This document shows positions 8,371 to 64,000 of a DNA stretch of 64,000 nt, one piece after another. Under the pieces are notes generated by a model, which did not search any database, was not told the DNA's origin, and saw nothing but the letters and a program-made list of their open reading frames with translations. Source of the DNA: Flavobacteriia bacterium (GTDB lineage: Bacteria > Bacteroidota > Bacteroidia > Flavobacteriales_D > Crocinitomicaceae); the NCBI GenBank assembly GCA_026391005.1, contig JAPLEV010000014.1:1-64000 (forward strand), read 5' to 3'. The translations under genes and the position numbers were made by a program. Position 1 is the first letter of the stretch. Each line of letters opens with the position of its first letter.

Positions 8371-9504
8371 ATGAGAAAAATTCAAATGGTCGATTTGATC
8401 AGCCAATATGAAAAAATCAAGCCTGCCATTGATGAAGCGATTTTTTCGGTTATACAAAATGCTCAATTTATTAATGGACCAGAAGTTACTGGTTTTCAAA
8501 GTGAATTTGAAAGCTATTTAGGAATTAAGCATGTAATCCCTTGTGCTAATGGCACAGATGCCTTACAAATCGCCATGATGAGTTTGGGATTGAAACCTGG
8601 TGATGAAATTATTACGCCTTCCTTTACCTATATAGCCACCACAGAAGTGATGGCACTGCTTGGACTAACACCCATTTTTGTTGATGTAGATCCACATACA
8701 TTTTGTTTAGACCCGAGCAAAATTGAAGCAGCAATCACCAAAAATACCAAGGCAATTGTTCCCGTTCATCTCTATGGACAAGCTGCCGATATGAATAAAA
8801 TAATGGCTATCGCAGAAAAGCACAAACTCTATGTAATAGAGGATAATGCGCAAGCTATTGGCTCTGATTATCACCTGGATAATGGATCAGTCGTAAAAAC
8901 AGGTACCATTGGACATATTGGCTGCACATCATTTTTTCCTAGTAAAAACCTAGGCTGCTACGGCGATGGTGGCGCAATGTGTACAAATGATGATGCACTG
9001 GCTGAAAAAATTCGAATGATCGCAAATCATGGCCAAAGTAAAAGGTATTACCACGATATGGTAGGATGTAACTCACGATTAGATAGCATTCAAGCAGCTG
9101 TGTTGCGCATTAAACTTCGCCAATTAGATAATTATATTGATGCACGAAGAAACGTTGCTGATTACTATGATGGGATTTTGGGAAGTATAAAAGGCGTGAG
9201 CATTCCATTTCGTGCACATGATTCCAAACATGTTTTTCATCAATACACTCTTAAATTGGAAGGGATTGATCGCAATGGATTAAATGAATATTTAGCAAGC
9301 AAAGAAATTCCGTCCATGATTTATTATCCGGTTCCGGCTCATCGTCAAAAAATGTTTGCCCATTTTGGAAGTGATACCACTAATTTACCGGTAACGGACG
9401 AACTTACATCCATTGTTATTTCACTTCCCATTCATACTGAAATGCAAGATGAACAACTTGAATTAATCACATCAGAAATCATTGAATTCATTCAAAAAAA
9501 ATGA
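8371..9504 (+). CDS. wbpE: UDP-3-keto-GlcNAcA aminotransferase (DegT/DnrJ family, WbpE-like)
   Basis: A 377-residue PLP aminotransferase of the sugar type. Motifs are [12 protein letters not shown], the EDNAQAIG segment with the PLP-contacting Asp, and [16 protein letters not shown] with the PLP Lys (about residue 190). In the WbpA-B-E-D pathway it aminates C3 of the 3-keto sugar made by WbpB. The presence of wbpB, wbpD and a wbpA-type gene in the same cluster supports this over other DegT roles. Its stop overlaps the ATG of the broken ugd gene (ATGA). Confidence 0.88.
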
Positions 9505-10789
9505 AAATAGCTGTAATTGGAACCGGATATGTTGGACTAGTAACTGGTACTTGTCTTGCAGAAACGGGGAATAAATCGATCGTTTAAATAAGGGAGAAGT
9601 GCCCATTTATGAGCCACAATTAGATACTTACTTTGAACGTAACATGAAAGCCCAGCGTTTGTTCTTTACAACCTCATTGGTAGATGGGATTAAAGATGCT
9701 GAGGTGATCTTTCTAGCACTTCCTACTCCTCCCGGTGAGGATGGATCTGCAGATTTATCCTACATTTTAAAGGTTGCCGAACAATTGGGTAGCATGATCG
9801 AAAAATATACCATTATCGTTGACAAAAGCACCGTTCCTGTTGGCACGGCAGATAAAGTACATGCCATCATCTCCAAGAAAGCAAAATGTACATTTAGCGT
9901 TGTTTCGAACCCTGAATTTTTACGCGAAGGCTTTGCTATTAGCGATTTCATGAAACCGGACAGAGTTGTTATTGGAACCGAGGATGCCACAGCAAGAAAA
10001 GTAATGGAAAGACTATATAAACCATTTGTCCGGCAAGGTAACCCCATTATATTTATGGATGCAAAATCAGCTGAACTAACAAAATATGCAGCCAATGCTT
10101 TTTTGGCGACGAAAATTACCTTCATGAATGAAATTGCTAATTATTGTGAGTTAGTTGGCGCAAATGTAGATCAAGTTAGAATCGGTATTGGTTCTGATGA
10201 TCGGATAGGAAAACGCTTTTTATTTCCCGGAATTGGCTATGGTGGGTCATGTTTTCCCAAAGATGTGCAGGCACTTGTCAAATCGGGGAAGGATGATGCT
10301 TTTGAATTTAACATCTTAAATGCTGTTATGGAGGTGAATAACCGTCAAAAAACAGTCTTGTTTCCTAAAATAATGAATTACTTCGATGGGAATATAACAG
10401 GGAAAAACATTGCACTTTGGGGCTTGGCATTTAAGCCTGATACGGATGATATTCGCGAAGCTCCCGCTCTCTATTTAATTGATAAATTAGTAGAATCAGG
10501 AGCTATAATTTCAGCCTTTGATCCGGAAGCAATGGAGAATGTACAGCAATTAGTTGGAGATAAAATAACGTATGCAGAAGATGAACATCAAGCGTTAAAA
10601 AATGCAGATGCTTTGATCATCTGCACCGAATGGAGTATTTTTAGAAATCCAGATTTTACTAGAATTAAAGCTGAAATGAAGGGGAATGTGATTTTTGACG
10701 GTAGAAACTTATTCGACCTAGAAGACATGCAATCCAAAGGATTTTGTTATTTTAGTATAGGACGTCAGATCATAAACGCAAAACAATGA
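9501..10789 (+). pseudogene. ugd: UDP-glucose 6-dehydrogenase, frame broken near the N-terminus
   Basis: ATG 9501 opens [18 protein letters not shown]...AETGN, a normal UGDH start, but the frame hits TAA at 9585-9587. The rest ([14 protein letters not shown] onward, from about 9575) continues two frames over to 10789, with the catalytic Cys in GYGGSCFPKDV and the usual C-terminal NAD/UDP domain. About 31 bases are missing between GN and IDR, exactly where family members carry the VTCVDID strand that binds NAD ribose. A GTG at 9599 could start a 396-residue remnant, but without the dinucleotide-binding start it should be inactive. This is either a real deletion or an assembly error. The next gene overlaps by ATGA. 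Confidence 0.85.
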
Positions 10790-23373: not shown

Positions 23374-23922
23374 AAAAAGTGCTTAAATTATAGAGATTTC
23401 CCAAAAACATCCATACTTACTATTCGTTTTTTCTTTGTCTCGATTGGCAAAGTGAGGATGAAGATCCGCCTAGGCGGATCGAGTCGAAAACTATACCGAA
23501 AAGCACCGAATTCTCGGTGCGACGTTTCGGTGTGTCGTTTGATTTAAGTGTCTCTCGGCTCCGCTCGATTCACTTAAAGGGCATCGAGCGGAGTCGAGAG
23601 GCGCGTTACCCATTCTTTTGTACTTGTGCTGAGCTTGCCGTAGTATCAAGACAAAAGGACAAAGAAAATAACGTCTGATTTTTTCCGCCGGGGCGCAGGA
23701 CAAAATTGATATTAATTATTTTGATAATCACTTTCGTTCCACTATTCGAAATCCTATTCAAATTCATAACGCGAAAATCAATCTCTATTTGAGAAATTAT
23801 TGTTCACTAATATTCACTATGTAGTTCTCACTTCGAATGAATTCTTTATTTTTAACATTAAAATAATTTACTTGTACGATTGCGAAGACTCAATTATTTA
23901 TTAATTTTAACAAAAAAACACC
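23374..23922. other. Gene-poor stretch with a palindrome cluster
   Basis: About 550 bases without a convincing gene. The first 90 bases are AT-rich and hold no clear terminator. The middle (23463-23657) is a GC-rich cluster of inverted repeats, described separately. The last 220 bases are AT-rich leader sequence before the next gene. The 70-codon minus-strand frame across the cluster is not gene-like. Confidence 0.7.
23463..23657. repeat. Cluster of nested inverted repeats (palindromic intergenic element)
   Basis: Five inverted repeats lie side by side: perfect 18-bp palindrome GATCCGCCTAGGCGGATC (23463-23480); 7-bp stem GCACCGA/TCGGTGC (23503-23520); TTTAAGTG/CACTTAAA (23543-23578); an 18-bp stem with one mismatch joining 23552-23569 and 23583-23600; and CTTTTGT-CTTG/CAAG-ACAAAAG (23615-23657). 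The third and fourth overlap and cannot form together. The sequence is clearly GC-richer than the neighbourhood. It resembles dispersed palindromic repeats of Bacteroidota genomes and may be a decayed small mobile element. Confidence 0.7.
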
Positions 23923-34720: not shown

Positions 34721-34830
34721 TTTATACTTGTTTAAGTTCTTTCGTTATTCAAACTAACTTTGCTACAGGTCATCAAGGTTTGTTATAACGTATGAACAAT
34801 AAAAATGGTTACACAGCTAAAAAATAAATA

Positions 34831-45685: not shown

Positions 45686-45987
45686 GCTCAACGGACAAGC
45701 GAAAATCGGAAAGTCAGCCCTTGAAAAAGGTTATTGACCGGTTTTTAAAAGCGTATTCCTTAGAAAATAAGATGAAAGAAATGGACATCATTGCAGCATG
45801 GCCTGAATTAATGGGAAGTGCTGTAGCATTTAGAACAAAAAGTATAAAAATTCATAATAAGGTACTTTACCTAGAAATCACCTCATCTGTAATGCGGGAG
45901 GAATTACTCAATGGGAAACAAATTATTTTATCCCGTTTAAATGAAAGGGCTGGGCAATTGATAATCAATGATGTTTGGTTTGGATAA
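45682..45987 (+). CDS. DUF721 protein (DciA-like)
   Basis: A 101-residue protein with one DUF721 domain: PLKKVIDRFLKAYSLENKMKEM, IIAAWPELMGSAVAFRT, LYLEITSSVMREELLNGKQI. Its AAWP.....A..T pattern matches DciA, which recruits the replicative helicase DnaB in many bacteria lacking DnaC; the function here is inferred from that family. It is translationally coupled to recF. Confidence 0.88.
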   Translation: MSSTDKRKSESQPLKKVIDRFLKAYSLENKMKEMDIIAAWPELMGSAVAFRTKSIKIHNKVLYLEITSSVMREELLNGKQIILSRLNERAGQLIINDVWFG

Positions 45988-46058
45988 TACTTATTTAGGG
46001 ACTTTTGACTTAATGAAAATAATTATCATTTAACCACAATCATTTAAATTAGATTGGT

Positions 46059-47027
46059 TTGCGAAAGATCTTCCTTGCTCTATTCTTACTCTATTTTCAA
46101 CCGCTTTATTCGCAGGTTACTGACTATAATGTGACGAAAAACTGGGCTGTGTTACCTACTAAATTAACGCCAAATATTCGGAATTCAATAAAGGACAGTT
46201 CATTATTTAAGAATGTCGATGTGTTCTACATTTACCCTACTTTACTAGTTGACGTTCAAGATAAGCGTTGGAATATAGGAATTGATGACACTGCTCATAG
46301 AAGAGAAGTACTAGATTATGCCATCCGATTTCAAGCAAGTGCTTGGGCAGAAGCAGGACGAATGTACGCACCCTATTATCAGCAAGCGCATCTTCGATCA
46401 TATGATAGCTTAGAAAATGGCGGGCGAGACGCCTTATTATTTGCCTATGCGGACATTAAAGCGGCCTTTGAATATTACTTAAAGAATTACAATCATGGCA
46501 GAGGAATAATTTTGGCGGGACATAGCCAAGGATCAACCCACATTGATTTATTGTTAAAAGATTTTTTTGATGGCAAGGCACTTCAAAAACAATTAGTGGT
46601 AGCTTACATTCCGGGGATTGGAATACCAAGCAATGAATTCAATACCATTCCTTTTCTAATAAATGCCAAAGAAATTGGGGGATTTGTTACATGGAATACT
46701 TTTAAAAAGAAGCTCAATCAAGAAAAATACGAGAAGTGGTATTTCGGAAAAGCTGTAGTTAATCCAATAACATGGGATTTAAGCCCATTGAGTAAGAAAA
46801 ACCAGCAGAAAGGATTTTATTACAACAATGGAAAAAAATACAAGCATGTTTTTCAAACAGAACTCATTTCTGGAGGGCTTGTTTTGACGAAGCTAAAATT
46901 CCCCTTCAGCCTTGCCGCAAGGAAAATGAATGATTTTCATATTGGTGACATCAACCTTTTTTGGGAAAACATCCATCAGAATGCAAAACTGAGAGGCCAG
47001 GAATGGGTGTTAAAAAACACGCCATAA
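46059..47027 (+). CDS. DUF3089 alpha/beta-hydrolase
   Basis: A 322-residue exported protein (signal peptide to about residue 18, PLYSQ) of the DUF3089 family: KNVDVFYIYPTLLV, RMYAPYYQQAHLRS, DIKAAFEYYLKNYNHGRGIILAGHSQGSTHIDLLL with the nucleophile elbow GHSQGS, and IPGIGIP. Probably a periplasmic esterase or lipase of unknown substrate. The start is TTG 46059; no upstream ATG in frame was found. It lies convergent to a DUF5916 gene with a five-base gap. Confidence 0.85.
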   Translation: MRKIFLALFLLYFQPLYSQVTDYNVTKNWAVLPTKLTPNIRNSIKDSSLFKNVDVFYIYPTLLVDVQDKRWNIGIDDTAHRREVLDYAIRFQASAWAEAGRMYAPYYQQAHLRSYDSLENGGRDALLFAYADIKAAFEYYLKNYNHGRGIILAGHSQGSTHIDLLLKDFFDGKALQKQLVVAYIPGIGIPSNEFNTIPFLINAKEIGGFVTWNTFKKKLNQEKYEKWYFGKAVVNPITWDLSPLSKKNQQKGFYYNNGKKYKHVFQTELISGGLVLTKLKFPFSLAARKMNDFHIGDINLFWENIHQNAKLRGQEWVLKNTP

Positions 47028-59090: not shown

Positions 59091-59684
59091 ATGACAATGA
59101 AAAAAATTGGCATTACTGGTGGAATCGGCTCGGGAAAGTCTTACGTCTCGGATATTATTAAATCGATGGGGTTTCCCGTCTATCATTCAGACGAAAACGC
59201 CAAATCATTAATGGAAAGTAATCCAGAAATAAAGGAAGGATTACTACTTCTTTTTGGTGATTCTATTTACGAAAAGGGCGAATTAAACAAAAAGAAATTA
59301 GCGGAGCTGATTTTTGAATCCCCTGAATTACGTGAAAAGGTGAATGCCATAGTGCATCCTATTGTGAGGGCAGATTTCGCCCAGTGGGCAAGTAATCAAT
59401 CGCAAGAAATCGTCTTTAACGAGGCGGCCATTCTTTTTGAAACGGGTGCTCACACGAATTTCGATGCAACAATTTTGGTCATTGCACCCGAGGCCATTCG
59501 CATAGATCGTGTGATGAAAAGAGAAAATTGCTCGCGAGCGTTGGTGTTAAAAAGAATCCAATCACAATGGAGCGACGAACAAAAAAGTAGCTTAGCCAAT
59601 TACCAAATTATCAACGATTCTGTTTCTCCTTTGTTAATTCAAGTAGAAAAGGTGCTAGAAAAAATCAGAACGATTAATAATTAA
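59091..59684 (+). CDS. coaE: Dephospho-CoA kinase
   Basis: A 197-residue kinase: P-loop KIGITGGIGSGKSYV, FPVYHSDENAKSL, IVHPIV and NEAAILFETG, with RIDRVMKREN in the lid. It adds the 3'-phosphate in the last step of CoA synthesis. The start may be ATG 59091 (MTMKKIG) or ATG 59097 (MKKIG); the second matches the usual N-terminus, the first lies nearer to a TAAATTCG box. It converges with the next gene with an 11-base overlap. Confidence 0.95.
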   Translation: MTMKKIGITGGIGSGKSYVSDIIKSMGFPVYHSDENAKSLMESNPEIKEGLLLLFGDSIYEKGELNKKKLAELIFESPELREKVNAIVHPIVRADFAQWASNQSQEIVFNEAAILFETGAHTNFDATILVIAPEAIRIDRVMKRENCSRALVLKRIQSQWSDEQKSSLANYQIINDSVSPLLIQVEKVLEKIRTINN

Positions 59685-60765
59685 CATTAATGCTTAGACC
59701 AAAGCGAAGCGGATAAATGGCAATGGTGCTTCCTTTTTTGAATAAGGGGGTTAAACTATACTCTACAAATGCTCCTAAATACTTACCAAAACCGGCTCTA
59801 ACGGTTGCGTCTAAGGAAAAATGCTGTAAATTAAAACGTGAAGACGTATTATTAGTGAACTTATCGCCATTCACATATTCTCCTGTTTTCGTACTCGTAG
59901 AGGCAAAGCGCCATGCACCAATAACACCTGCGGCGAGGTAAAAGCTCTTTTTAGCTTCCGGCTTAGTGGTAAATTCCAGTAATAAGGGCAAGGTCAAGCG
60001 ATGCATTGCCAATGTATTTGTTTTATACGATTGGATGGTGTCCGAGACACAAAAAACGGTGTCGTTACTATGTTGAATAAGGTAATTATTTCGTAAACCG
60101 AGGCTCGTCAAACCATATCCCAATCCAGTAGTCAAACCTAGATATTGCTTAAAAATGGGAAGCTTATATTCTAGAAAATTAAAATTGATAGCCACGGATT
60201 TAACCGGATCTATTTGCCAGTAATCATTCGCTCCAAAATCTGTATCAAAACGTGAATTCGTCTGTTCATTTAAACGGAACATGCTCACAAATCCAAGATC
60301 AAAAGAAGCCCAATGTGGCTCATATTTAGTTTCTTCAGAGTCGTCAAATTCACCTTCACCCTCAAGGTCAAATGATATTGGTAAATCCATCACAGTCCTT
60401 GTTGCCAAAGAAGTATCTGCTGATCCAGGAAGCCAATTCGGCATAATAGATACTACCCGAAGCGCTTCTTGTTCTATTGCGGGACAATTGATGCCTTTAA
60501 GTAATTCCACATTTGCAACCTTTCCGTCTTTTTCGACATAAAAACGGACATACACCTTGCCTTCCATACCCAACTCAATGGCTGATTCAGGGTAAGTGAT
60601 ATTACTATGAATAAAACGCATAAGCGCTTCATGTCCACCTGGAAAAGTTGGTTCAATATCATAAGGCCCTTCTACTACTTCAATCGGAGGAGGTAAGGGT
60701 TCTTCTTGCGAGAACATGCTGGAAACAATAGAAAAACAAAAAAATAAAAGTAATTGAGTTTTCAT
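59674..60765 (-). CDS. TonB C-terminal domain fused to an outer-membrane-type barrel
   Basis: A 363-residue exported protein. Signal peptide (to about residue 19, SMFSQ), then a proline-rich bit (EEPLPPPIEVVEG), a TonB_C domain at about 38-130 with the Bacteroidota FPGG motif (PTFPGGHEALMRFIHSNITYP, GKVYVRFYVEKDGKVANVELLKG), then from about 150 a beta-barrel-like region (WASFDLGFVSMFRL through LGAFVEYSLTPLF...YPLRFGLSINV). Normal TonB proteins are anchored in the inner membrane by an N-terminal helix; this one appears secreted and followed by a barrel. It is encoded 20 bases downstream of the TPP-controlled receptor. The function is open. Confidence 0.8.
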   Translation of the reverse strand: MKTQLLLFFCFSIVSSMFSQEEPLPPPIEVVEGPYDIEPTFPGGHEALMRFIHSNITYPESAIELGMEGKVYVRFYVEKDGKVANVELLKGINCPAIEQEALRVVSIMPNWLPGSADTSLATRTVMDLPISFDLEGEGEFDDSEETKYEPHWASFDLGFVSMFRLNEQTNSRFDTDFGANDYWQIDPVKSVAINFNFLEYKLPIFKQYLGLTTGLGYGLTSLGLRNNYLIQHSNDTVFCVSDTIQSYKTNTLAMHRLTLPLLLEFTTKPEAKKSFYLAAGVIGAWRFASTSTKTGEYVNGDKFTNNTSSRFNLQHFSLDATVRAGFGKYLGAFVEYSLTPLFKKGSTIAIYPLRFGLSINVNY

Positions 60766-60785: not shown

Positions 60786-63245
60786 TTAAAATTTAAAAAG
60801 CACTCGACACATTAAATTTCTTCCCGCTTGAGGGTAATAAAAATTCTCTGTTGTTTTTTGACCATCATACAGGTATGAAAAAGTATATCCGTTATTGGCA
60901 TAAAGATAATTGAAAATATTATTCACCTGTAGACCGAAATTAATTTCTTTTCCTAAAACATGTCTAAGCGCATAGCTGAGCGTTAGATTACTGTATGAAA
61001 AAGCCTTAATACTTCTATCCAGCGCAGAAGTATTGTCCAAAAATTGTTGTGACACAAACTTACTCATCCATTCCACATTCATATTTTTAAAGGGCACCCA
61101 TACAACACCAAGGCTGGTAACTACATTTGGAGAAAAGGCCAAATCCACGTCTTTATGCGTGATAATTTGTTGCGAATAATAGGGTTCCGTGGAGGAATAA
61201 ACATCCAAAAATTCATTGAATTCTTTTATTTTATTTTGACTTAAGGCCAAGGCTCCATTAAATTTTAAGAAAGAAAATGGCGCATAAGCGGAGTTCATTT
61301 CGATACCCAGTCGATAACTTGAGGGAACATTGGTACGGGTATAAGAACCCACATCATTAATTTCACCCGTTAAAATAAGTTGATTGGTATAATCCATGAA
61401 ATAAGCATTTACATTCAAAAGTAGCTTCGATTTTTTGTAGGTGTAGCCCAATTCAACATCTCGTAAAACCTCCGCTTTTGGCCGGCTATTTGGAGTGCTT
61501 TCTCTAAAATCTTTCCGCACGGGTTCTCTATGAGAAATACCAAAAGAAGCAAAAATGGATTGCGCGTAAGAAAGCTGTCTTGAAATGGAAATTTTTGGGT
61601 TTAAAAAATCAAATTTTACCCGTTGCTGCACATCTTTTAACACGCCTGAAACTTGATCCACGCCCAAAAAAGAATAATCCAAGTGCCTGAACTGGATATC
61701 ACCGTTGAACGTCCAATCTTTCAGCTTATACGATCCTTTAACATAGGAAGACCATTCCGATTTTTGACCAGATTCATTGTAATAGCGATCTCCCAATTCC
61801 GAATCGGATGCAAAACGAGACCAGATCACTTCCCCATAATGACGACCCAAATACGTATTCACCGAACCACCCCACACCAAATTTAAACGTTGTTTAAAAT
61901 AGGAAAGAGAAAAGACAGAACCTATAAAATCATTGTTCAACCAACGCTGGCGAATTAGATCACTTGTGGTAATTGTATCGTTTCCTACGACCACCGATGA
62001 CATTCCATACCCGCTAAGTGTTTGGTTGTTTTTATATTCCTCATAATACCCTCTTCCATACGTATAGTGACCGGAGATATTTAAAAGTAAATTCGATTTT
62101 ATGGAATAGGCATAGTGCAATTGATAGTTATCTTGCTTGTAATTATCCACTTGATTTTTGTAAGTGTAAAAATTATACGTTCTTCCCGAGGAGATTAAAT
62201 TTTGTCGTTCCTCTGGGCTTAATAAATTGCGATCCGCATACGCACTCATCTCCGCTACATCGCCGGTTAAACGACTTTCTGGTGTGCCATACCAAGCCTG
62301 ATACGTCAACTCATGACCACTAAAGACAAGCGCTTTCAGAAGGAAATTTTTACCGAGGTAAGCGCCAGAAAAATAGATGGAATTTAGATTTGATTTAGCT
62401 CGATCTAGAAATCCATCGGAAGAAATACGGGAGAGACGCGTTTCAAAATTAAACTTTTGATGGAGGAGCCCCGTTCCAATTTTAATAGAATTTTTGAGCG
62501 TGTTAAACGCCCCATAACTATTGTCAATCGTTGCGTAGGGCGTTTCAGAAAGATTGCTAGACTTCAGGTTTAATCCTGCGCCAAAAGCGGCAGCGCCATT
62601 GGTAGAAGAACCAATACCGCGTTGAATTTGAATATTTTCAATGGAGCTACTCAAATCAGGCATATTGACCCAATAAACATCGTGCGATTCAGGATCATTG
62701 ATTGGAATACCGTTCAAGGTGACATTGATGCGAGAAGCATCTATTCCTCGAATTCGCATTCCTGTATACCCTACTCCATTTCCTGCATCTGAGGTAGTTA
62801 CTAAGGAAGGCGTGCCATCCAATAAGAAAGGCAAATCTTGTCCAAAGGCCTTTTTTTCTAAGGTTTTCTCTTCAACAAAAATCGCGGAGGAAGATGCAGC
62901 AGACGCTCTGGTAGAGGTAACTTGAACCTCTTCCAAGGTTTGGGTACTTTTATAGAGCATGATTTTTAATGGAACATTAAAATCTTCCGAATAAAAAAAG
63001 TTGGCACTTGAAGTGTATCCTGGGAATTCAAAAACAAGCGTGTTTTGACCACCAATTGCCGGTCCTAAGCTAAATTTTCCCTGCGCATCGGTTTGGGTGC
63101 AGAAGGTAGTCGCTTGGATACAAACCTTTACGCCTTCCAACCATTTCCCTTCCTCATCGGATACGACACCCGTAAAATTATTTTGTCCAAAAGAGAGAAA
63201 AGTCGATACTAAAAAACCGATACTGATAAAAATCCTTGTTTTCAT
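60786..63245 (-). CDS. TonB-dependent receptor under TPP riboswitch control (probable thiamine uptake)
   Basis: An 819-residue receptor: signal peptide to about residue 20, a carboxypeptidase-regulatory-like domain (FTGVVSDEEGKWLEGVKVCI), a plug at about 110-230 (MRIRGIDASRINVTLNGIPI, INIPLSSSIENIQIQRG-type region) and a long barrel ending LMCRVLFKF. A TPP riboswitch lies 57 bases upstream, so it is repressed when thiamine pyrophosphate is plentiful. Thiamine-regulated outer-membrane receptors of this kind are known in Bacteroidota and are thought to import thiamine or its precursors. ATG 63245 gives the signal peptide; a TTG eight codons earlier is less likely. Confidence 0.9.
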   Translation of the reverse strand: MKTRIFISIGFLVSTFLSFGQNNFTGVVSDEEGKWLEGVKVCIQATTFCTQTDAQGKFSLGPAIGGQNTLVFEFPGYTSSANFFYSEDFNVPLKIMLYKSTQTLEEVQVTSTRASAASSSAIFVEEKTLEKKAFGQDLPFLLDGTPSLVTTSDAGNGVGYTGMRIRGIDASRINVTLNGIPINDPESHDVYWVNMPDLSSSIENIQIQRGIGSSTNGAAAFGAGLNLKSSNLSETPYATIDNSYGAFNTLKNSIKIGTGLLHQKFNFETRLSRISSDGFLDRAKSNLNSIYFSGAYLGKNFLLKALVFSGHELTYQAWYGTPESRLTGDVAEMSAYADRNLLSPEERQNLISSGRTYNFYTYKNQVDNYKQDNYQLHYAYSIKSNLLLNISGHYTYGRGYYEEYKNNQTLSGYGMSSVVVGNDTITTSDLIRQRWLNNDFIGSVFSLSYFKQRLNLVWGGSVNTYLGRHYGEVIWSRFASDSELGDRYYNESGQKSEWSSYVKGSYKLKDWTFNGDIQFRHLDYSFLGVDQVSGVLKDVQQRVKFDFLNPKISISRQLSYAQSIFASFGISHREPVRKDFRESTPNSRPKAEVLRDVELGYTYKKSKLLLNVNAYFMDYTNQLILTGEINDVGSYTRTNVPSSYRLGIEMNSAYAPFSFLKFNGALALSQNKIKEFNEFLDVYSSTEPYYSQQIITHKDVDLAFSPNVVTSLGVVWVPFKNMNVEWMSKFVSQQFLDNTSALDRSIKAFSYSNLTLSYALRHVLGKEINFGLQVNNIFNYLYANNGYTFSYLYDGQKTTENFYYPQAGRNLMCRVLFKF

Positions 63246-63273: not shown

Positions 63274-63298
63274 CTAATTCCAGCTGGTTATTAATTAG
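63274..63298 (-). promoter_or_regulatory. Possible expression-platform hairpin after the TPP aptamer
   Basis: CTAATT (63274-63279) and AATTAG (63293-63298) can pair around a loop with the palindrome CCAGCTGG. It lies between the aptamer and the receptor start. It has no U-tract, so any switching is more likely at translation than by termination. Inference only. Confidence 0.35.
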
Positions 63299-63302
63299 CA
63301 CA

Positions 63303-63384
63303 GTCATCTTCCCTTCGTAGGCATTATCCTAAATCAGGTTCAATGGGTATAATCTCAGCCTTGTCACGGGCACCCCTTAGAGAC
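63303..63384 (-). ncRNA. TPP riboswitch (THI element)
   Basis: On the minus strand, reading 5' to 3', the element shows GGGGTGCCC, CTGAGAT, ACCCATTGAACCTGATTTAG and GATAATGCCTACGAAGGGAA, all the conserved THI-box blocks in order. P1 can form between GTCTCT (63379-63384) and AGATGAC (63303-63309), with one bulge. It controls the TonB receptor downstream. The 5' edge of P1 ends at the very base where the neighbouring truncated epimerase sequence begins, so no promoter for this riboswitch is visible. Confidence 0.95.
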
Positions 63385-64000
63385 GGGGGCATATTGGAAA
63401 TGTAGTTTGTAGAAAACTGATTGAATTAGGCTATTCGGTAAAGGCCTTTTATCATTCTGATGCTACGAGTTTAAAAGATTTGCAATTAACATTGGTTAAA
63501 GGCGATATTCTTGATCCTACAGCGGTAAGCAACTTATTATCTGGGTGTGATTATGTAATCAATTGCGCTGCCCTAATAAGTATCAATGGTGATCCAAGTG
63601 GAATAGTCTACAAGACCAATACCCAAGGTCCTGCAAACATTCTTTCTGTAGCCAAAGAACTTGGAATAAAAAAAATAATTCATGTCAGCAGTGTACATGC
63701 CGTTCATGATTTGCCGCACAATACAGCTTATGATGAAACGCGACCTTACAAAACGAAAAGTGATTTTGCCTACGATTACTCTAAAGCCCAAGGCGAACAA
63801 ATTATGCTTTCGGGAGCTGAAACGGATGGCGTAGAAGTGGTGGTGGTAAGACCCAGTTGTGTCATTGGGCCTTTTGATTTTAAACCTTCCAAAATGGGAG
63901 CTGCACTTCGAGGATTTTACAAAAAGAAATTCATATTCCTTCCCAACGGTGGCTATGATTTGGTGGATGTTCGCGATCTTTCAACTTCCATTTGTGCGGC
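63385..64000 (+). pseudogene. NAD-dependent epimerase/dehydratase, missing its N-terminus (also cut by window edge)
   Basis: From 63390 an open frame runs to the window end: HIGNVVCRKLIELGYSVKAF, KGDILDP, NCAALISI, VHVSS-like IIHVSSVHAVHD, YDYSK (YxxxK), VVVVRPSCVIGP, VDVRDLS. This is an extended SDR epimerase. The expected opening (Met, a beta strand and TGA.G of the NAD loop, about ten residues) is absent, and TAG at 63378-63380 closes the frame upstream, inside the TPP riboswitch. No start codon exists before ATG 63803. Either a deletion or an assembly join removed the 5' end together with the divergent promoters. Confidence 0.85.

Follow-up and report, generated by a model that had tools for sequence, protein, structure and literature searches.

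A TPP riboswitch abruptly joined to a headless epimerase gene at a site that is an insertion hot spot in related genomes

Flexible genomic islands, or hypervariable hot spots, hold variable cargo between conserved flanks. SXT, for its part, supplies the gene it enters, prfC, with a new start. The SXT/R391 ICEs integrate in the 5' end of prfC, as set out in the account of these elements in PMC2791158. On the regulatory side, OMthi (BT2390) of Bacteroides thetaiotaomicron is presented in PMC5613172 as a TonB thiamine receptor behind a TPP riboswitch.

The locus described here shares features with each of these systems. Like OMthi as portrayed in PMC5613172, it places a TonB-dependent outer-membrane receptor behind a TPP riboswitch; unlike OMthi, the presumed native promoter before the aptamer appears to be deleted, and the substrate of the receptor is putative. 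In related genomes insertions enter a conserved chromosomal gene, here an epimerase gene, at the 5' end, as SXT/R391 enters prfC in the description of PMC2791158, and the interrupted gene has a complete 5' end again after the insert. However, SXT uses its own tyrosine recombinase according to that description (PMC2791158), whereas a search with the Phage_integrase domain (PF00589), which leaves serine recombinases and transposases outside its reach, found none on the eight contigs, from 7 relatives, that carry the site. By this search the relatives' islands thus encode no recombinase of the kind that would mark an integrative element. Also unlike SXT/R391, the relatives' cargo is about 1-12 kb with putative mobility, and our genome carries no such element. 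The collinear conserved flanks are as in flexible islands, and so is the variable cargo, in which a toxin-antitoxin pair and the gene for a secreted protein are found; unlike in those islands, displaced copies of the 5' end of the target gene mark the insertion point in five relatives, 5 of the 6 copies with a shared 26-bp continuation.

The window, i.e., the whole stretch of 64,000 nucleotides that was analysed, is part of contig C41 (115,057 bp) of genome G000 (2.64 Mb in 56 contigs, completeness 95.3%), whose source organism is a freshwater bacterium. Judging from its relatives, G000 is very probably a metagenome bin: a search of one named-genome collection returned 15 loci, all titled MAG and labelled Flavobacteriales or Crocinitomicaceae, plus some other labels. 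Several of these loci (L handles) are the same genomes as those with G handles. With some gaps, C41 aligns collinearly with G039, G049 and G043 along most of the compared length, while G021 and L087 provide shorter stretches that are collinear around the junction. At 65685-65721 of C41, beyond the window, there is a second variable point, where G049 and G043 have a 5-6-gene block, including the gene for a 769-aa protein, that is absent in G000 and G039.

The TPP riboswitch aptamer (RF00059) occupies 63293-63387 on the minus strand. It was matched by cmscan over the full model (1-105) with 53.5 bits and an E value of 1.8e-9, the gathering score being 54.3; within the window, no RNA family reached its gathering score. 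We take its membership in RF00059 as safe, because the match is full-length and the riboswitch is present in 11/11 scanned orthologous receptor loci (at or above gathering in 4 of the 11), and we regard the riboswitch of G000 as real. A match to GOLLD RNA (20.2 versus 150 bits) was taken as chance. The gene behind the riboswitch (60786-63245, minus strand) is assigned to a TonB-dependent receptor by its Pfam Plug and CarboxypepD_reg domains, its orthologs and the riboswitch. Orthologs with at least 53% identity were found in 12 of the 14 genomes searched; none was found in G045. A thiamine compound is the probable, putative substrate.

The homology on the riboswitch side stops at 63386, and epimerase homology starts at 63387. 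The joined sequence, GAGACGG followed directly by GGGCATATTGG, spans 63380-63397; microhomology at the join amounts to 0-1 bp (G), and the riboswitch model match takes in one base (63387) to its right. BLAST alignments split exactly at 63386/63387 against G049, G043, G021 and L087, which bears out the abrupt junction described in the initial annotation. Against G039 the right piece also begins at 63387, and the left piece weakly overruns to 63409, these 23 bp being, by eye, a weak A+T-rich similarity. Epimerase homology starts at 63387 in G045 and G050 as well. Five relatives (G039, G049, G043, G021 and L087) are collinear with C41 on both sides of the junction, and the DNA between the two parts measures 12,159 bp in G039, 8,116 bp in G049, 7,392 bp in G043, about 1.7 kb in L087 and 875 bp in G021. 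The length of the gap is unmeasurable in G050, where the two sides lie on separate contigs, and in G045, since the receptor ortholog was not found there. The set of genes between riboswitch and epimerase varies among the relatives, and G000 has none. Such a comparison with related genomes, as proposed earlier, bears out the observation with one refinement: the missing part consists of 0.9-12 kb of genes and goes beyond an intergenic region.

To the right of the junction, a headless NAD-dependent epimerase/dehydratase runs on the plus strand from 63387 to the window's end at 64000, and on to 64319 of C41. Its PF01370 match (96.9 bits against a cut-off of 20.9) covers profile positions 11-218 of 240. 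The first codon that matches the relatives is GGG at 63387-63389, the Gly that follows ...VAVTGAS in their proteins; the first 11 codons (M..S of M-x-K-x-V-A-V-T-G-A-S) are gone, which deprives the protein of its initial beta strand and of the leading Gly in GxxGxxG. The N-terminus is complete in 13/13 named-genome loci read upstream (of 15; L095 and L096 were left out), so the epimerase start and first beta strand are indeed absent as previously noted, and the G000 protein has neither the full N-terminal strand nor the GxxGxxG motif nor a start codon. Not until 63480 does the frame offer an ATG, GTG or TTG. The frame is open from the junction through 64319, and an in-frame TAG directly 5' of it (63378-63380, plus strand) closes it upstream; a fusion or read-through gene was rejected on this ground. 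Rarer start codons would give no complete dinucleotide fold. With no start codon, and with the first beta strand and first dinucleotide-motif Gly lost, the epimerase would be dead as a dehydrogenase. Nevertheless, the headless gene still looks constrained: the 302 codons compared are free of stops, and dN/dS against G039 is 0.19, within the 0.107-0.260 spanned by pairs without G000 (the near-identical pair G043-G021, at 0.459, being left out). Immediately downstream, at 64320-64900 of C41 (L052:4320-4900), lies a 581-bp stretch of dispersed repeat, which is also represented at 23514-23688 of the window. Within G000 the stretch gives at least 47 matches, counting itself (40 of 71 candidates scored); most are short, and both orientations occur. 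It contains a 79-bp tandem pair, and a 24-bp inverted repeat is found at 23552-23600.

TANNTTTG is the Bacteroidota -7 consensus. In 11/11 relatives a box resembling TANNTTTG abuts the riboswitch match or stops one base short of it, with 6/6 letters matched in 8 and 5/6 in the other 3, whereas the same fixed position in G000 has 2/6. The box was scored at fixed positions; for L032, which has a tied box elsewhere, the fixed position was taken from the sequence. Conservation of a -33 motif was looked for in the same relatives and none was found. We believe that the -7 box would be the receptor's native promoter element, and the claim that promoter sequence is missing fits with its loss in G000. 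Since the deletion ends almost at the presumed transcription start, it would have removed the receptor promoter together with the epimerase leader and start. The receptor would then keep its aptamer but be deprived of its native promoter. A candidate substitute in G000, TACATTTC (5/6 letters, 8 bases upstream of the lost box), was indistinguishable from chance.

In the relatives, the 5' end of the epimerase gene is an insertion hot spot with variable cargo. Inserted genes are present in 7/7 informative close relatives (G039, G045, G049, G050, G043, G021 and L087); L084, which ends at a contig edge, was left out of this count. When two proteins of the window and eight from the islands were compared with Pfam, the latter yielded an ECF sigma factor, a Por_Secre_tail sorting-domain protein, a short-chain dehydrogenase, a CAP-domain protein and an AbiEi/AbiEii pair, with 2 of the 8 giving no match; two-component genes were also recognized by eye. 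Among the matches listed for the literature on freshwater Crocinitomicaceae islands and integration, none evidently concerns an epimerase hot spot.

A profile search of eleven sequences revealed, besides intact genes, six displaced and truncated copies of the epimerase 5' end, which are also seen as direct repeats of that end. They are spread over five relatives, two of them in G050. Five copies (in G039, G045, G049, G050 and G123) stop at profile position 130, and the sixth, in G050, stops at position 171 beside an AbiE cassette. In the window, position 130 corresponds to 63406 and the junction to position 111, so that 63387-63406 (plus strand) is the segment matching this insertion core. The five position-130 copies continue into the same 26-bp sequence, which, allowing up to 3 mismatches, occurs in 5/86 genus genomes, once each, with 0 matches for the reversed control. 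As the pattern was built from G039 and G049, two of these matches are there by construction and three are new finds. Each of the five is immediately preceded by a displaced epimerase 5' end, and three different upstream contexts are represented. Past the 26 bp there are three kinds of sequence (G039 and G045; G049 and G123; G050), G050 agreeing with the first kind for a few bases longer. An exact-match search of viral contigs for the 26-bp end gave no hits. The profile search detected no displaced copy in G000, nor in G043, G021 and L087 despite their inserts; the L084 sequence extends too short a distance upstream to be informative. The 10-kb contig of G123 has a displaced copy and no intact epimerase. 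In one relative an AbiEi/AbiEii toxin-antitoxin cassette (L058:5301-6880) lies between displaced and intact epimerase 5' copies.

The displaced copy in G050 is 150 bp from the riboswitch edge, and G045 has a similar context at a contig end. These copies near the riboswitch suggest that the riboswitch, a short intergenic region and the epimerase originally followed one another without interruption. As for the insertions themselves, the displaced copies would fit site-specific insertion, and they would also fit one old insertion followed by homologous shuffling via the shared 5' ends. One specific reading is that, in freshwater Crocinitomicaceae, the Rossmann-loop codons of the epimerase might be the attachment site for cassettes that lack an integrase, are moved in trans, restore the 5' end, stack, and sometimes fail in excision. 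We regard this reading as doubtful, and slightly more so because three relatives with inserts show no displaced copy.

How did the state seen in G000 arise? We lean, with some confidence, towards a real and recent illegitimate deletion allele. On this reading, the epimerase 5' end would be a fragile site, a recurrent insertion point at which cassettes bring a replacement 5' end, and a deletion from approximately the receptor transcription start to codon 11 of the divergent epimerase would have taken away the receptor -7 element, the epimerase start and, as parsimony suggests, an island of inserted genes. The presence of inserts in 7/7 close relatives is what makes loss of an island by G000 the parsimonious reading; we infer both that the deletion was biological and that G000 had an earlier island, which was probably lost together with both promoters. 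A junction of this kind would also result if about 184 bp had been lost from an allele without an insert, such as the one that G050 implies. The 0-1 bp of homology, and a join 20 bp before the end of the displaced copies, point to an illegitimate deletion rather than an excision. The epimerase tree separates G000, G039 and G045 from the rest with a support of 90 and groups G000 with G039 with a support of 58; the latter pair has a support of 61 in the receptor-side tree. Supports range from 29 to 100, and the root is unreliable, since the outgroup attaches within the ingroup by a very long branch. The constrained, stop-free epimerase implies that the loss is recent, or else absent from the population. 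The epimerase branch of G000 is about three times that of G039 (0.042 versus 0.013) although its receptor-side branch is the shorter of the two (0.015 versus 0.025), an oddity that speaks against the reading as a recent deletion.

We also searched G000 for island DNA, with 12.3 kb from G039, 7.9 kb from G049 and 7.0 kb from G050 (the islands of G043, G045, G123 and L087 were left out). Beyond the epimerase itself and two short matches on other contigs (81% and 70% identity), none was found among the first-look candidates scored (40/98, 40/50 and 40/68, respectively). One of these searches recovered the epimerase end of its query, and another had no such internal control.

The initial annotation had named deletion and assembly fault as the two candidates, and both have stood up. 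An artefact of assembly or library, in which chimeric reads or a minority allele at a strain-variable site were assembled while the majority genome is intact or carries an island, is the less probable of the two, yet has to be taken seriously. The relatives differ strongly at this site, and their contigs end at or inside it (C12 and C47 of G050, C14 of G045, and L084), as would be expected if mixed-strain hypervariable sites are where assemblies fail; moreover, a headless gene free of stops and frameshifts fits a population with an intact gene. On the other hand, there is no sequence overlap at the junction for an assembler to misuse, and since a de Bruijn assembler would have had no long overlap to use falsely, reads with the join probably existed. 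Elsewhere, C41 and G039 remain collinear for about 108 kb, interrupted by several gaps, and few of the C41 genes look broken. A broken-gene test over the 115-kb contig, which did not flag the headless epimerase itself, flagged 1/83 G039 proteins (at a contig end) and 2/83 G049 proteins (ugd, and a protein whose ATG is preceded by a stop). The same test gave 4/84 and 2/81 for G039, and 4/84 and 3/80 for G049. A general assembly fault finds no support, as on this contig there is no excess of broken genes over the relatives and no clear excess of larger indels.

It is very unlikely that the junction stems from aberrant excision by a site-specific recombinase acting on the core at the epimerase 5' end. 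Although the right breakpoint coincides with the start of the approximately 20-bp segment with which the displaced 5' copies terminate, it falls at profile position 111 while five of those copies end at 130, the left breakpoint shares no core sequence, and the contigs carrying the relatives' site are free of the Phage_integrase domain. An illegitimate deletion accounts better for such a join.

The proposal that one process lies behind both the junction and a second loss, in ugd, can hardly be maintained: both strike an NAD-binding N-terminus within one window, but ugd lost 31 bp internally while the junction removed promoters and a start, the breakpoints are unrelated, and the four larger losses specific to G000 are no clear excess over G049 (3), though above G039 (1). 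The ugd gene (9501-10789, plus strand) keeps its ATG (9501-9503) and initial 24 codons and then lacks 31 bp with respect to both relatives, a frame-shifting deletion at 9572/9573 whose breakpoints share nothing informative with the junction. We therefore see it as a separate event, with no sign of a shared process in the sequences. It is the only frameshifted gene flagged on C41 (83 proteins from each of two relatives). G000 has no second full ugd copy that we could find, only ugd in two pieces and a distant relative of 24% identity. The flanks of ugd resemble G049 more closely than G039, and the tract may therefore have recombined.

The losses of at least 20 bp confined to one genome in this three-way comparison (4 in G000, 1 in G039 and 3 in G049) were counted without the chaining artefacts at 34801/35160 and 55621/55909; those of G000 are the 31 bp of ugd, about 700 bp, about 298 bp and the junction site. 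At 45987-46140, G000 lacks about 700 bp that in G039 hold a single gene, whose product of about 250 aa looks like an esterase by eye; G049 has a stretch of similar length. At 59674-59690, about 298 bp present in both G039 and G049 is absent in G000 between two convergent genes, by eye coaE and a TonB-like gene, whose ends overlap in G000.

Altogether, a suspicious gene fusion in an assembly turns out to sit on a natural insertion hot spot, so that there is reason neither to dismiss it as noise nor to see in it a new regulatory design. As a feature of one genome the headless epimerase is ordinary; the hot spot with its displaced 5' ends is of more interest, and these ends provide a simple marker for finding further insertions at the epimerase gene.
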